In this document: positions 51,251 to 57,402 of the stretch, one piece after another
Layout: the number at the start of each line of letters is the position of its first letter
Numbering within the stretch: the stretch's first letter is position 1
DNA from: Bacteriovoracaceae bacterium
GTDB lineage: Bacteria > Bdellovibrionota > Bacteriovoracia > Bacteriovoracales > Bacteriovoracaceae
DNA: 64,000 nt
Direction of reading: 5' to 3'
Assembly (NCBI GenBank): GCA_024711325.1
Contig: JANJTC010000001.1
Span: 186,001-250,000, forward strand
The notes under the pieces: model-generated
The model's input: only the letters and a program-made list of their open reading frames with translations
What the model was told of the DNA's origin: nothing
Database searches by the model: none
Position numbers and translations under genes: made by a program

Positions 51251-52240
51251 GTGACTAGTAATGAAAGTAAAACTTTAAAAACATTTGAGAATCCCATCTT
51301 TATATCGATGGGTGTCCTTTGGTTATGCGGAGTTCTGACTCTTGTTGCTTCAAGTTACTTATTGCCTAAAACTTATACAGGATTTAACTACTCTGTTGGC
51401 GTTGAAGGTGTGGGCTTTATTATCTTTTTATTGCTGACTATATCCATCCTTACTACCACCAGCGTTTGGTCATTTTTAACCTTCAAGTACCGGGTCGTGG
51501 AATATGCAGAAAAATTCGATAAAGAGATTGAGCAAGAAAGGCTCCGGAGCTTACATACAGCGAAATTATCTGCTCTGGGCCGAATGGCGGCAGGTGTGGC
51601 GCATGAAATAAATAACCCTTTGGCCATTATTGCAGGCAGCACTCATATGCTGCAGAAGCAAACATCCAGACATTTAAGCCAAGAAGAGATTGTTAACAGT
51701 GTAAGCATCATTGATCGGCAGGTGATTAGAATATCCAATATCGTTAAGGCCCTAAGAAGTATCACTGGAGATGGCAGCCGTGAATCGAAGCAACTAATCT
51801 CACTTCAATCGATTATCCTTCAGGCCTATGAGTTTCTGGCCAGTCGATTAAAAAGTGAAAATATTGAATTTATTTTTGAGGGTCAGAATAATGAAACGAA
51901 AGTTTTTTGTCGGGCCACTGAAATATCTCAAATAATCTATAATCTATTTTCAAATTCAATTGATGCTCTTGAGGGAAAAAAAGATAAGTGGATACGGGTA
52001 TCCTTAGAAACATCAGACGGTAATTGTATTATCAAATTCTCGGACTCCGGTGGACCATTAGATAAAGACCTTGTTGAGAAACTCATGGAGCCTTTTTTTA
52101 CCACAAAAGATGTCGGCAAGGGGACCGGACTTGGATTAAGTATTTGTAGCTCTATTGCCCAAGGGCACGGAGGGCTGCTTGAATATGATACAACAGCTCC
52201 GACGACAACCTTTATCTTAAAGCTTCCGATCGGGGCTTAA
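51251..52240 (+). CDS. Membrane histidine kinase without an adjacent response regulator
   Basis: 329 residues from a GTG start. Two membrane helices (ISMGVLWLCGVLTLVASSYL; GVGFIIFLLLTISILTTTSV) with a short extracytoplasmic loop, then HisKA with the phospho-His in GRMAAGVAHEINNPLAIIAG (about 118), then HATPase_c with N-box IYNLFSNSIDALEGKK, FSDSGGPLD and GKGTGLGLSICSSIAQGHGG. The H-box wording resembles NtrB/ZraS-type kinases that partner with sigma-54 activators. No response regulator gene is adjacent. It precedes, in the same direction, the diiron/desaturase operon. Confidence 0.9.
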   Translation: MTSNESKTLKTFENPIFISMGVLWLCGVLTLVASSYLLPKTYTGFNYSVGVEGVGFIIFLLLTISILTTTSVWSFLTFKYRVVEYAEKFDKEIEQERLRSLHTAKLSALGRMAAGVAHEINNPLAIIAGSTHMLQKQTSRHLSQEEIVNSVSIIDRQVIRISNIVKALRSITGDGSRESKQLISLQSIILQAYEFLASRLKSENIEFIFEGQNNETKVFCRATEISQIIYNLFSNSIDALEGKKDKWIRVSLETSDGNCIIKFSDSGGPLDKDLVEKLMEPFFTTKDVGKGTGLGLSICSSIAQGHGGLLEYDTTAPTTTFILKLPIGA

Positions 52241-52325: not shown

Positions 52326-52341
52326 TGGCATCTTTCTTGCT
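52326..52341 (+). promoter_or_regulatory. Sigma-54-like -24/-12 promoter before the diiron oxygenase operon
   Basis: TGGCATCTTTCTTGCT has GG and GC separated by 10 bases, matching the TGGCAC-N5-TTGCA sigma-54 pattern except at weakly conserved positions. The predicted start of transcription (about 52352) would lie 2 bases before the ATG, and the gene has no ribosome-binding site, so the message may be leaderless. It is a single motif judged by eye. Confidence 0.55.
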
Positions 52342-52353
52342 TAGTTATCCAGT

Positions 52354-53346
52354 ATGGCCACCATAGACATTTATGATGAAGAGAAGATCGCGAGACTTCT
52401 TTTTGTCCAAAGAGCACAAGGAATTGATTTTAGTCTTGATTTAGACTGGTCTCAATCTATTGATCTAAAAAAATCCTTCTTGCCACTCGACCACAATGCA
52501 ATCCTTTTTCCTAAGGCAAGTGAAGAACAAAGATTAGTCATCTCACAATTTATAGGTCTCATGGTCGCTGCGACTATTTCCGAACTAGAGGAAGTCGCCT
52601 GCAGATTAAAAGGTCCGACCTGGGAAAATGTCCTGAGAAAATTTCCAGTAAATCCTGAGATTCATGAAATGGGTGAACTTTTTTATGAAGATGAAAAGAA
52701 ACATTCTGCTGGATTTAGGCGTTATATAGATTTATTTGCCGAAAAAGTTAATGTGGATCCGGTTGATCTCAAAGTTCTATTACCCAGTTCAGACAAGACT
52801 CTTTCAAGTAAGATTTATCACTTGAATTCCTTGGCCGGCGGTATGGCGATTTGGTGGCTAATTGCTGCTGTAGAAGAAGAATCGATCCTGATCTTTGATC
52901 ATATGAGAAAGAGTCGCAGAGAGATTGATCCTCTCTATTATGATCTTCATAAGGCCCACTATGAAGAGGAAATCAGACACAAAAGTTATGCTTCGATTAT
53001 GCTCCAGGTGAATAGTGAGTTTGCCCGTGTGCCTCATTCCATCGTTTTAAGAAAACTTGATTTCATTTTGGCCGAAATTTTAAATATAACATGGACCTTT
53101 AATCAGTTATTCAAGGTTAAAAACTTTAAAAAATTGAGTTCAGCAAATCCTTTTTTTAAAATACTTTCAGAGCTTGAACCACTTTTGAGAGATCAAAGTT
53201 CACTTTCTGTGATTCACCACCTTTTTACTACCGCTCCTTATATAAAAAACATGCTTCACTTATCTGAACACCAACATATCAGGCATATGCTGGAACGATT
53301 TGGTGCTAAGAAAATACCCCTTCATTATTTTAAAGGGGCCTCTTAA
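52354..53346 (+). CDS. AurF-like ferritin-fold diiron oxygenase
   Basis: 330 residues, helical, no signal peptide. All diiron ligand motifs of the AurF / p-aminobenzoate N-oxygenase family can be placed: Glu in ISELEEVACRL (77-80), E114-xx-H117 in YEDEKKHSAG, Glu in AAVEEESILIFDH (174-176), and H202-xxx-E206-xx-H209 in AHYEEEIRHKSY. AurF oxidises arylamines to nitroarenes; other members hydroxylate or act on lipids. It is the first gene of the operon and shares one base with the hydrolase gene. There is no SD before the ATG. Confidence 0.8.
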   Translation: MATIDIYDEEKIARLLFVQRAQGIDFSLDLDWSQSIDLKKSFLPLDHNAILFPKASEEQRLVISQFIGLMVAATISELEEVACRLKGPTWENVLRKFPVNPEIHEMGELFYEDEKKHSAGFRRYIDLFAEKVNVDPVDLKVLLPSSDKTLSSKIYHLNSLAGGMAIWWLIAAVEEESILIFDHMRKSRREIDPLYYDLHKAHYEEEIRHKSYASIMLQVNSEFARVPHSIVLRKLDFILAEILNITWTFNQLFKVKNFKKLSSANPFFKILSELEPLLRDQSSLSVIHHLFTTAPYIKNMLHLSEHQHIRHMLERFGAKKIPLHYFKGAS

Positions 53347-54197
53347 TGTATTGTATCGATTCCATATCCAGAAATGGGGAAGTTTTTCATTATATCGATG
53401 TAGGGTCATCCAATCAGAATGCATCTCTGGTTATTCTTCTCCATGGGTTTCCGGATAATGCTTTCGGATGGAACCTACAGATCACCACTCTTAAAGATCA
53501 CTTTCATGTCATTGCTCCTTTTATGCCTGGGACCTTGAACAGACATACTGTTCCCAGTGAAAGACTCAAGACCGAGGAGCTTAAGAAAGATTTATTCGAG
53601 GTACTGAATAAAGTCAGGGTATCTCAAACCCAAAGAGTTTATATTTTGGGCCATGACTTGGGGGCCTTCCTCGGCGAATCCTTTGCCAAAGATTTAGGGC
53701 AAGACATTAAGGGAATTATCTTTCTTAATGGAATGGGGCTTGAGCAATTTGTGAGTAGGAAATTTAAACTTACCCAATGGTTTAAATCTTATTACGCATT
53801 TTTATTTCAGTTGGCCTTTGTCAGAGCTCTGGTTTATGAAGTCTTGCCTGACTATTTTTTGAAAAAGGCCTATGATCATTCTATTGTCCCTTTGCATGAT
53901 GAAATAAGAAATAATGATAATCGCGTTCTCAGTACGATTCCGCTCTATAAGCACCTGTTTAGAGATGCTCTTAAATTCATTAGAAAGAAGCCTGGTCGTC
54001 TAACTATCCCCGCTCTTTTTCTCTGGGGAAAAGATGATGCTTTTTTAAACATTCCCAATCTTGATGAAGTGGATCAATTCTATGCTACGGGAACAGTCCG
54101 CGTCTTGGATGGTGGGCATTGGATTATGCGCTCTCGATTTGATCAAGTGAATAGAATCATTTTAAAGACTCTCAATCAATGGGAGAAAACGTCATGA
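53346..54197 (+). CDS. Alpha/beta hydrolase with Asp nucleophile (epoxide hydrolase / dehalogenase type)
   Basis: 283 residues. Oxyanion motif LVILLHGFPDNAFGWN. The nucleophile elbow is LGHDLGAFLGE, with Asp where lipases have Ser, as in epoxide hydrolases and haloalkane dehalogenases. Later acid LFLWGKDDAFL and catalytic His in VRVLDGGHWIMRSRF. Cytosolic. Its ATG overlaps the diiron-oxygenase stop by 1 base (TAATG) and its stop overlaps the desaturase start by 4. It may open an epoxide or ester made by its operon partners (inference). Confidence 0.82.
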   Translation: MYCIDSISRNGEVFHYIDVGSSNQNASLVILLHGFPDNAFGWNLQITTLKDHFHVIAPFMPGTLNRHTVPSERLKTEELKKDLFEVLNKVRVSQTQRVYILGHDLGAFLGESFAKDLGQDIKGIIFLNGMGLEQFVSRKFKLTQWFKSYYAFLFQLAFVRALVYEVLPDYFLKKAYDHSIVPLHDEIRNNDNRVLSTIPLYKHLFRDALKFIRKKPGRLTIPALFLWGKDDAFLNIPNLDEVDQFYATGTVRVLDGGHWIMRSRFDQVNRIILKTLNQWEKTS

Positions 54198-55006
54198 ATA
54201 AATTTAAAATCAACCGTCATTATTTGCTGATTTATTGTCTGTTTTCGTTGATCCTTTTTATAGTTATTGATTATGCTGTATTTTCTGTGAATGGCCTTAA
54301 CTTTGATTTTCAGTTGAGTTCTTATGATTTTTGGCTGGTCCTTTTACCGGTATTCTTGTGTGGTTTGCCTTCAAGTATCATGCATAACTGCGCACATAAC
54401 AATTTAAGGCCAAAAATGTTGAATTTAGTGGTAGGTGAACTCTGTGGTACATTTATGCTCTATGGTTTTAGGGGCTTTGCTCTGGCCCACATGTTTCATC
54501 ATATTCATCCTGATGATCCTCTGATGGATCCTCATCCACCACAAGGACAAACCTTTTTTCGTTTTGTCATCTCGCCTATCAAATCAACCCTAAAGGTTGT
54601 TGAACGGGCCTATTATAAAAATTATGGAATAACTTCGCGAACCATCATAAATATCAAAGCTCAGAAATTCCTATTCAATCTGTGTCTCTTGGCCAGAACT
54701 CTGTTTTGGTTATTTCTGCTGGGTCCCAAGTATTTTTTATTGGCCTATTTGCCGGTATATTTCGCTAATATATTTGTCTTTGCCCATATCAATTTTGCTG
54801 CCCACAAGGAGCGTTCAGACGGTAGTTCTGAAATTATTAATCTCAATCACAACCTTTATTATCAATTTATTAACTTAGTTTCTTTTGGTGGATATTTTCA
54901 TAAAAGTCATCATTTAAGACCTGGTGCCTTTAATCCTGCAAGAATTAAGACCTTAGAGGATAAGATTTATATTACAAATTCCAAAGCGATGGGGATTCAT
55001 GTATGA
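54194..55006 (+). CDS. Membrane fatty-acid-desaturase-family enzyme (first of two)
   Basis: 270 residues from ATG 54194, which overlaps the previous stop (ATGA) and has GGGAGAAAAC upstream. His boxes of the membrane diiron desaturase/hydroxylase superfamily: HNCAHNN, HMFHHIHPDDP and HKSHHLRPGAF, plus HINFAAH. Hydrophobic helices flank the boxes (YLLIYCLFSLILFIVIDY; LLPVFLCGLPSSIM). It uses O2 to desaturate or hydroxylate a lipid-like chain. It is a paralogue of the next gene (shared HHIH.DDPL.DPHPPQG). Confidence 0.87.
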   Translation: MNKFKINRHYLLIYCLFSLILFIVIDYAVFSVNGLNFDFQLSSYDFWLVLLPVFLCGLPSSIMHNCAHNNLRPKMLNLVVGELCGTFMLYGFRGFALAHMFHHIHPDDPLMDPHPPQGQTFFRFVISPIKSTLKVVERAYYKNYGITSRTIINIKAQKFLFNLCLLARTLFWLFLLGPKYFLLAYLPVYFANIFVFAHINFAAHKERSDGSSEIINLNHNLYYQFINLVSFGGYFHKSHHLRPGAFNPARIKTLEDKIYITNSKAMGIHV

Positions 55007-55758
55007 ATGGTTTTAAAAAGAATCCTCATTATTTGCTTAAATCTTTTAGCGTAAATATCTTCCTCTTTGGTTTATTTGTTTTTGTTATGATGACATTTAA
55101 ACCTTTAGTCTTTGAAAAATTTTCTATTCTTCTTCTGCTTTTGATCCCATTTGGGCTCATCTTGGGGCTAGTTAGCGCAACTGCTTTTCATAATGCCAGT
55201 CATGGGAACATTAAACCCCGTTTCCTGAATCGTATAATAGGAGAACTAACTGCGGCCCTCTTTCTTGAAGATTTGCGTTGTTTTAGAGTAGGTCACATGC
55301 TTCACCATATCCATACAGATGATCCTCTATTGGATCCACATCCGCCTCAAGGACTGAAGTTCTTTGAGTTTATTCTTTCTTCTCGCAAAAAAACTATTTC
55401 CTGTATTGAAAACCTTTATTACAAGCATCATCTGAAAACTGCTTTATCGATGAAGAATGTAAGGCTGCAGATTTTGTTTTTTCATATAGCAGCGGTATTG
55501 AAACTCGTTTTTTGGCTTTATTTATTTGGTCCCGTCACTTTCTTATTTTTCTTCATTCCTTCATACCTGGCCTATTTCTTTGGATTTGCCCATTTAAACT
55601 ATATTTCCCATCAAGAAGATTATGGAGATGGATCTATCTATAACCATAATGAGAACTTCTTCTATCAATTCATGAACGTTGTGACTTCCGGTGGTTATTT
55701 CCATAAAAATCATCACGCTTCGCCTGGGCTGTATAACCCGAGTAAATTATCCCGATAA
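55003..55758 (+). CDS. Membrane fatty-acid-desaturase-family enzyme (second of two)
   Basis: 251 residues, paralogous to the preceding gene. His boxes: HNASHGN, HMLHHIHTDDPLLDPHPPQG, HLNYISH and HKNHHASPGLYNPSK. Similar membrane helices. The start overlaps the previous stop by 4 bases. Two tandem copies suggest sequential modification of one chain or a two-subunit enzyme (inference). It is the last of the four overlapping genes. Confidence 0.87.
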   Translation: MNGFKKNPHYLLKSFSVNIFLFGLFVFVMMTFKPLVFEKFSILLLLLIPFGLILGLVSATAFHNASHGNIKPRFLNRIIGELTAALFLEDLRCFRVGHMLHHIHTDDPLLDPHPPQGLKFFEFILSSRKKTISCIENLYYKHHLKTALSMKNVRLQILFFHIAAVLKLVFWLYLFGPVTFLFFFIPSYLAYFFGFAHLNYISHQEDYGDGSIYNHNENFFYQFMNVVTSGGYFHKNHHASPGLYNPSKLSR

Positions 55759-55828: not shown

Positions 55829-55942
55829 ATGGCGCGCGGAGAAGGTGGACAAGACAAAGGTAAGGCGAAAGGCAAGCCTAAGCTTACTACCAAAGAAAAG
55901 CAGGATAAGAAGAAAGAGAAGGCCAAAAACAAAGTAAAATAA
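55829..55942 (+). CDS. 37-residue Lys/Gly-rich basic protein
   Basis: ATG 55829 with AATAAGGAG 6-7 bases upstream, stop at 55942, terminator directly after. The sequence MARGEGGQDKGKAKGKP continues as an almost entirely Lys/Glu/Asp/Gln stretch and ends in VK. About 15 Lys in 37 residues. No hydrophobic segment. Such short basic proteins could bind nucleic acid or act as ribosome-associated factors. It is 70 bases after the desaturase gene, so it may be on the same message. Confidence 0.6.
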   Translation: MARGEGGQDKGKAKGKPKLTTKEKQDKKKEKAKNKVK

Positions 55943-55954
55943 CAATTAAGTTTG

Positions 55955-55980
55955 GGTCAGGTTCTACCTGACCTTTTTTT
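55955..55980 (+). terminator. Terminator after the small basic protein gene
   Basis: GGTCAGG-TTCTA-CCTGACC stem followed by seven T, 12 bases beyond the stop. It also abuts the stop codon of the convergent lipoprotein gene. Confidence 0.92.
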
Positions 55981-56629
55981 ATTCTTCTTCTGGCACCCTC
56001 AGGATTTTTCCGCAGGCAATCGGAAGGCTATCTTGAGAGGAGAGACCATTCATCGTTTCAATAGTCTCTGGTAAAGGTGTTCTCGCCGGCACTCCATAGA
56101 TAATAATTACTTTTTCCTGAGGATCAATATCTAAACTATCAGGTTTCATCACTTCTCTATACGTATAGTGACCGGACCCATCGGCCCGTGGGAACTCTGG
56201 ATCAAGTGGGTCTTTTGCATTCAAGTCACCATCGAGCTCCATCAGTTTTTTACCAGAAATCTTATTCACTTCTGCCACATCAATCACACCATCCTGATTG
56301 ATATCATGATTTTCCTCTGGACAATTATTCCCATCATGCACATATTGGTGATGAGTTACCCCAGCAGGTGTACCAACCATATTTATTTGAAATGCTATTC
56401 CTTCAATCAGTGTCTCAATATTGCCCGTGCCATTAGAAGTATGCTTGAAGACTTGGTTATTCAAAGGTGCCAAAATAATCCTATAACTTCCAATTCTAAG
56501 ACCTTCTTCATTTGGGCGCTCTTCTTGAACTTCCTGGGGGGAGGGTAAAAGGTCTTTATCATCTTTACCACAGGCCCATAGAAGACTTAGGCCCAGAAGA
56601 TAGACTAAAGGGAAAGATTTTATAACCAT
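55979..56629 (-). CDS. Lipoprotein with an EF-hand-like calcium loop
   Basis: 216 residues. AGGAGAGG precedes the ATG. Type II signal with lipobox LLWACGKDD (Cys about 20). The loop DINQDGVIDVAEV (about 116-128) matches an EF-hand pattern, and a nearby DGSGHYTYREV has Asp/Gly character. Similar to the lipoprotein at 43082-43804. Its start overlaps the protein-glutaminase-like gene by 10 bases, so the two are co-translated, and it could be a partner, chaperone or anchor of that enzyme (inference). Confidence 0.75.
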   Translation of the reverse strand: MVIKSFPLVYLLGLSLLWACGKDDKDLLPSPQEVQEERPNEEGLRIGSYRIILAPLNNQVFKHTSNGTGNIETLIEGIAFQINMVGTPAGVTHHQYVHDGNNCPEENHDINQDGVIDVAEVNKISGKKLMELDGDLNAKDPLDPEFPRADGSGHYTYREVMKPDSLDIDPQEKVIIIYGVPARTPLPETIETMNGLSSQDSLPIACGKILRVPEEE

Positions 56630-57402
56630 GGGGGAGCCTCTCCTAATTCTGCTTCAACTTGTCTGCCAAGCCTTCTTATTCGTGCTTCTTCTTTAAGCAA
56701 GTACGCTTTTTGTGCTTTTTCGGCCCTTAATTCTAATCCATCAGTATTTTTATCGCAGTTGTCCCCAGGTGAGTACGTTCCTGAACCGCAGATTGCAACT
56801 TTGATCTTCTCTGGCCTTCCCATGCGTGAGAGCCATTCAGTAAGTTCTAAGGGACGAGAAGGTTCTATGGCCGGGTCAAGGACGTATTTTTTATCCTTAA
56901 CCTGCACAATCGGGGCAACGTGATACCACCAAGCGACTTTTCCTCTAGGTGAATTCGGCGTCGTCACTCGAAGGCTTCCGAAGGCAAATATCTTTTTTGT
57001 CTGAGGGTATAACCAACGAAAGACATTCCGGCTAACCATCGCTGCACGCGCATAACAACCATCATCAGGATAAATCCATGATGGTCTTCTTTCTTCCCCA
57101 TTTATTGAAATAAATCTGGTGTCACGAAGTTTTTCAAATCTTGCTTGTAACAGAGTTGATTTCCAACGGGTAATATCAGGCAATTCTGCTTCGACGAACT
57201 TTTTTGCTTTATTCAAAGGGGTGTTTCTGATGATAAATTTAGCATTCGACTCTTGATTCCTGTTTAAATACCTATAGGCCCTTCTTTCATAGACTTCATA
57301 GGGAATATTTGGCCTACGATAGGCAGATTCAAGACCTGCTCTGGCATTGGGAAGAGCATTAATGCTAAAGATGAAAATAGTCGTGAATATTTTTAGTAAC
57401 AT
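56620..57402 (-). CDS. Exported protein-glutaminase-like enzyme
   Basis: 260 residues. GGAGCAGAG precedes the ATG. Signal peptide LKIFTTIFIFSINALPNARA. The Cys-His-Asp triad of the protein-glutaminase (protein-glutamine deamidase) fold is readable: Cys in PDDGCYARAAM (about 116), His in KVAWWYHVAPIV (about 153) and Asp in YVLDPAIEPS (about 175). A C-terminal GDNCDKN region with an acidic helix follows. These enzymes convert protein Gln to Glu. In a predator it could modify prey proteins. Function is inferred from motifs only. Confidence 0.75.
   Translation of the reverse strand: MLLKIFTTIFIFSINALPNARAGLESAYRRPNIPYEVYERRAYRYLNRNQESNAKFIIRNTPLNKAKKFVEAELPDITRWKSTLLQARFEKLRDTRFISINGEERRPSWIYPDDGCYARAAMVSRNVFRWLYPQTKKIFAFGSLRVTTPNSPRGKVAWWYHVAPIVQVKDKKYVLDPAIEPSRPLELTEWLSRMGRPEKIKVAICGSGTYSPGDNCDKNTDGLELRAEKAQKAYLLKEEARIRRLGRQVEAELGEAPPWL

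Follow-up and report, generated by a model that had tools for sequence, protein, structure and literature searches.

Introduction

The characterised members of the AurF family of diiron enzymes, AurF and CmlI, are N-oxygenases (PMC10724926). Epoxide hydrolases (EHs) of the alpha/beta-hydrolase type are recognised by an HGxP motif, an Asp nucleophile, an Asp or Glu, a His and a pair of Tyr residues (PMC8244358), and those of the EphD type accept epoxystearic acid and epoxymycolates as substrates (PMC7998700). The combination of an oxygenase with an EH is already known as the logic of alkene catabolism. Pfam family PF10118, the 'predicted metal-dependent hydrolases', is mentioned by its number in a single paper of the literature that we searched. 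To our knowledge, no member of the AurF family is known as an epoxidase.

Here we analysed a 64,000-nucleotide stretch of a Bacteriovoracaceae genome (the window), in which an AurF-like gene lies together with the genes for a putative EH and two predicted membrane desaturases. A first-pass annotation, made from the sequence alone, could recall no named pathway with this set. In agreement with this, no paper describing the gene set was found in our literature search, in which subscription journals were thinly covered.

Organization of the operon

Four co-directional genes span positions 52354-55758 of the plus strand (Table 1) and overlap by 1, 4 and 4 bases (ATGA), as had been noted before and as can be read directly from the sequence. 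The start given in the first-pass annotation, 52326, is 28 bases upstream of the ATG of gene 1, whereas its residue numbering fits the ATG at 52354. For gene 3, an alternative in-frame ATG is located upstream at 54179, but it is from the ATG at 54194 that the ATGA overlap results. A hairpin with a T run downstream of gene 4, the sequence of which is present also in the relative L023, is plausibly the end of the operon transcript, as judged from a consensus search that found 5 terminator-like sites against 3.7 expected. Motif matches in the promoter scan were not above those in shuffled sequence, and no electron-donor gene was found inside the operon.

Table 1. Positions of the operon genes and of the terminator-like site in the window
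Feature	Position	Strand	Size or remark
Gene 1, AurF-like ferritin-type diiron oxygenase (predicted)	52354..53346	+	330 aa
Gene 2, alpha/beta-hydrolase epoxide hydrolase (predicted)	53346..54197	+	283 aa
Gene 3, membrane desaturase 1 (des1), FA_desaturase family (predicted)	54194..55006	+	270 aa from ATG 54194
Gene 4, membrane desaturase 2 (des2), paralogue of des1 (predicted)	55003..55758	+	251 aa
Terminator-like hairpin and T run	55954..55974	+	consensus match only

A histidine kinase gene (51251-52240), about 110 bases upstream of gene 1, was rejected as a member of the operon because the closest relative is the only other genome in which it adjoins the operon. Between the des2 gene and the hairpin, a 37-residue Lys-rich ORF (55829-55942, plus strand) is preceded by an RBS-like AAGGAG, and a near-identical sequence was found in L023. 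Further downstream, a 216-aa lipoprotein-like ORF without Pfam match (55979-56629) overlaps the ORF of a Gln_deamidase_2 domain protein (56620-57402, minus strand; PF18626, E 1.6e-30), whose domain is preceded by a signal-like N-terminus.

Diiron oxygenase and epoxide hydrolase

Gene 1 scored under the cut-off of both Pfam families to which it is related, AurF (PF11583; E 8.1e-6, 25.6 bits against 29.6) and PF10118 (Metal_hydrol; E 1e-3, 19.3 bits against 33.2). All 17 of its aligned relatives matched AurF, with a best E of 5.9e-11, and 10 of the 17 also matched PF10118. By hhalign, the gene 1 family was aligned with five plasmid-borne AurF-family 'diiron oxygenases' at E 2.4e-11, with ExxH and HxxxExxH in register. 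Profile-profile comparison with three PF10118 proteins gave E 1.2e-5, the ExxH, E and HxxxExxH ligand motifs being in register also in this alignment. Between PF10118 and the annotated AurF set, profile comparison gave no direct match, and the link runs only through the gene 1 family.

The ligands E114xxH117 and H202xxxE206xxH209, pointed out in the first-pass annotation, are present, but that list was incomplete in that E79 and E174 are also invariant. The whole set of seven (E79, E114, H117, E174, H202, E206 and H209), which we take to correspond to the ligands in AurF's own numbering, is kept in every relative that has residues at these positions. Because of the seven ligands and the profile-profile matches, gene 1 is placed by its sequence within the AurF/PF10118 superfamily, yet by score in neither of the two Pfam families. 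The gene is thus predicted to encode a divergent ferritin-like diiron oxygenase with all seven AurF-type ligands, in support of its earlier description as AurF-like. A search of PDB sequences with the gene 1 profile gave nothing below E 0.1 (best E 0.13), and an AlphaFold model built from three sequences was unusable (pLDDT 35).

The profile of gene 2 relatives matched solved EHs at E 6e-45 to 1e-25, the best being 5ng7 (E 6.3e-45) over profile positions 13-279 of 283. The nucleophile D104, within a GHDLGA elbow (residues 102-107) that is intact as first described, was conserved in 31/31 relatives, the acid D231 in 29/29 (one Glu) and the base H258 in 29/29. Both cap tyrosines, Y150 in an S-x-Y motif (31/31) and Y201 (29/29), were likewise conserved. 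The HGxP motif is HGFP at residues 33-36, with an aromatic x and with H, G and P invariant in the relatives. Since all the hallmarks of alpha/beta EHs are present and conserved, gene 2, called 'epoxide-hydrolase-like' in the first-pass annotation, can be upgraded: by every sequence criterion its predicted product is an EH.

Haloalkane dehalogenase was rejected as an identity of gene 2, because both EH cap tyrosines are conserved and the best solved relatives are EHs. The best NCBIfam match of gene 2 was the EphD-like EH-SDR fusion (NF004514), at 63 bits against a cut-off of 455, and the domain search found no SDR domain in gene 2. The substrates of EphD-type EHs, taken together with the desaturases of the operon, favour a fatty substrate.

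Membrane desaturases

Both genes 3 and 4 matched PF00487 above its cut-off of 29.7 bits, des1 with E 1.3e-17 (64.9 bits) and des2 with E 1.3e-14 (55.0 bits). In des1, the motifs H64xxxH68, H99xxHH103, N200xxxH204 and H236xxHH240 were invariant in 24 relatives, and in des2 the same three His boxes and the Asn-x3-His set were likewise invariant. The three His boxes of both proteins had been listed before as intact, and N200xxxH204 is an addition to them. The Asn-x3-His set is presumably the counterpart of that in the acyl-CoA desaturase SCD1, and the desaturase profile gave a weak match to 4ymk (E 0.0019). From these matches, genes 3 and 4 are assigned to the PF00487 membrane desaturases, with acyl desaturation as the predicted reaction. 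The two are paralogues of 39% identity and form separate clades in the tree (support 100/99), indicating that their duplication is older than the spread of the four-gene operon.

The best NCBIfam match of the desaturases was the beta-carotene hydroxylase CrtR, a very weak one (E 0.0015-0.0033; 17 bits, the cut-off being 475). This match would fit a terpenoid or carotenoid tailoring route, in which the desaturase-like proteins would hydroxylate a carotenoid-like isoprenoid or act on it as ketolases. We regard such a route as improbable: the conserved Asn-x3-His set and the general PF00487/acyl-CoA desaturase match argue against it, and no carotenoid gene was found conserved beside the operon in the neighbourhoods read.

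Conservation within Bdellovibrionota

The oxygenase was present in 32 of the 369 genomes of the phylum Bdellovibrionota, and the neighbourhoods of 30 loci in 29 genomes were read. At every readable locus (30/30), the EH gene adjoins and follows the oxygenase gene, and its product carries the EH catalytic signature. The genes behind this pair differ. The order oxygenase-EH-des1-des2 was observed in 10 genomes including this one, all in the window's family, and a single desaturase follows in 2 genomes. The order oxygenase-EH-M24-SDR, here called the sister version, was observed at 15 loci across several families; three loci end at a contig edge after the EH gene. One genome, G169, carries both the sister version and the order with des1 and des2, the two loci being L073 and L074. 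A diverged AurF-like homologue of 26% identity without adjacent EH (L040, genome G037), which probably belongs to another subfamily, was left out of the count.

The gene order is kept in many genomes down to 29-62% identity, indicating that the four-gene arrangement is not due to chance. The first-pass annotation had looked to conserved neighbourhoods as a check. The set does recur in 10 genomes, but the constant unit across the phylum consists only of the oxygenase and the EH, and the desaturase pair, specific to one family, is a module at the place where M24 and SDR genes usually sit. This exchange of modules was observed directly, as were the gene set, its motifs and their conservation. The oxygenases of the desaturase-bearing operons form a single clade (support 100/99), and the three version labels fit the oxygenase tree with only two changes. 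In the alignment of the M24 protein of the sister version, five positions, assigned as metal ligands on our assumption of analogy to the M24 fold, are kept.

Similar desaturases, often in tandem pairs, were found elsewhere in Bacteriovoracaceae without the oxygenase (G012, G032, G051 and G077), and four other PF00487 proteins are encoded in the window's own genome. Both observations, and the occurrence of the oxygenase-EH core without desaturases, would agree with a protective set, in which the EH and the oxygenase remove unsaturated or epoxidised lipids that are toxic and may come from prey, and the desaturases separately tune membrane fluidity, the genes sharing a common trigger and not one pathway. 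The four-gene order in 10 genomes, mostly with translational overlaps, and the monophyly of its oxygenases argue against such a loose association, which we judge to be quite unlikely.

In genome G005, a second, divergent desaturase pair (L028:10435-12044) is located upstream of the operon and is transcribed away from it.

Related clusters in other phyla

Evidence from other phyla comes solely from a plasmid collection. Searches of this collection by tblastn with the oxygenase and with des1 gave no informative match, and the M24 protein of the sister version was used as a lead to replicons of Dietzia, Embleya and Burkholderia. In these three, an M24 gene lies beside those for an EphD-like EH-SDR fusion (PRK05855) and a PF10118 protein. 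The M24/SDR combination is in this form present also in Actinomycetota and Burkholderia. The fusion scored well over the cut-off in Dietzia and Burkholderia, and the EH domains of all three carry the EH signature.

Altogether 12 plasmid loci of PF10118 were viewed, and an EH was found in the cluster at 6 of them, those of Dietzia, Embleya and Burkholderia included, the other 6 having no recognised EH. Stand-alone EHs were observed in Acinetobacter KCTC 92772, with a 4-base overlap, and in R. koreensis, together with a reductase. On plasmid pGS01 of Rhodococcus fascians (L106:4953-7806), the PF10118 gene is linked by 4-base overlaps with genes for a VanB-type reductase and a limonene-1,2-epoxide hydrolase (PF07858), which belongs to an enzyme family other than the alpha/beta EHs. 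No other single observation argues as strongly that the diiron partner yields an epoxide as the presence of an EH of a different family in this slot. Consistent with the needs of an oxygenase, a gene for a [2Fe-2S] VanB-type reductase is adjacent at four of the loci, those of Dietzia, R. fascians, R. koreensis and Embleya. These findings suggest that the R. fascians PF10118 protein is misnamed as a 'metal-dependent hydrolase' and is an oxygenase.

Several AurF and PF10118 clusters contain FAD monooxygenases and SDRs without EH, and in a Rhodococcus cluster of AurF proper, a Ser-nucleophile hydrolase is present instead of an EH. The diiron enzyme could then hydroxylate, N-oxygenate or oxidatively cleave its substrate, and the alpha/beta hydrolase could act on a lactone or some other electrophile, or on an epoxide formed as by-product. 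The EH-less clusters speak for this explanation, as does the oxidation of amines by the named AurF relatives (PMC10724926). Against it, the hydrolase paired with the oxygenase shows no variation in HGxP or in either EH cap tyrosine, and in R. fascians an EH of another family occupies the hydrolase's place. We consider it unlikely on balance.

Proposed route

We propose that the operon specifies an oxygen-dependent lipid route of desaturation, epoxidation by the diiron enzyme and hydrolysis to a vicinal diol, a reading that we hold to have about an even chance of being correct. One or both membrane desaturases would first create a C=C bond in an acyl chain or in a hydrocarbon chain of another kind. 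The AurF-like enzyme, receiving electrons from a ferredoxin/reductase of general cellular use, would then add one oxygen atom across the double bond, and the EH would open the resulting epoxide through a covalent Asp104 ester, with Tyr150 and Tyr201 activating the ring, to give the diol. In the sister version, the SDR might oxidise this diol to a hydroxy-ketone. That the diiron enzyme epoxidises, that the steps follow in this order, that the substrate is a lipid and that a cellular electron donor is shared are inferences from sequence.

The reading of the diiron enzyme as an epoxidase is based on the EH following the oxygenase at all 30 loci in the phylum and on the EHs, including one of a second family, at half of the PF10118 loci. 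Against it stand the N-oxygenase activity of the named enzymes AurF and CmlI (PMC10724926), the other half of the PF10118 loci viewed, the Ser-nucleophile hydrolase of the Rhodococcus cluster and the indirectness of the link between PF10118 and AurF. For the four-gene route as a whole, the desaturase pairs located away from any aurF-like gene and the lack of an electron-donor gene in the operon are points against. More tentatively, and with somewhat less confidence than doubt, we suggest that the single-chain diiron family of AurF-like and PF10118 proteins includes lipid-alkene epoxidases coupled to EHs across phyla, and that the Bacteriovoracaceae operon converts a saturated chain successively into alkene, epoxide and vicinal diol.

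If this is true, a concrete reaction, alkene epoxidation, would be provided for a diiron branch without described function, and the PF10118 'metal-dependent hydrolases' would probably be misnamed oxygenases. Dihydroxy or hydroxy-keto lipids would be predicted in predatory-type bacteria. The filling of the EH slot by two EH families would also allow the substrate chemistry to be approached in a simple way through genomes.

Comparison with known systems

Gene 1 resembles AurF and CmlI (PF11583) in the seven-ligand pattern of E, ExxH, E and HxxxExxH and in detectable profile homology. It differs from them in its score under the family cut-off and in its position beside an EH and desaturases instead of in an antibiotic cluster, and is known here from its sequence. 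With PF10118 it shares weak homology and a ligand motif in register, and several PF10118 members lie beside EH, SDR, M24 and reductase genes. PF10118 is, however, a separate Pfam family, and desaturase partners were not seen in the loci viewed.

Gene 2 has the same catalytic residues as the EphD-type EH-SDR fusions (PRK05855; M. tuberculosis EphD), and the sister operon encodes as two separate genes, EH and SDR, what these fusions combine in one protein. Gene 2 itself is stand-alone and far under the cut-off of that family, and its operon includes no SDR.

The single-chain AurF-like enzyme, its coupling to desaturases and the interchangeable tail of the operon appear to be undescribed as far as our searches show. 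Pathways of an alkene monooxygenase and an EH, of which the ibc genes are an example, reportedly employ multi-subunit soluble diiron monooxygenases acting on short alkenes. The isobutylene ibc genes (PMC13188929) follow the same logic of an oxygenase and then an EH. The window operon differs from such pathways in that a predicted single-chain AurF-like enzyme takes the part of the oxygenase and is accompanied by desaturases.
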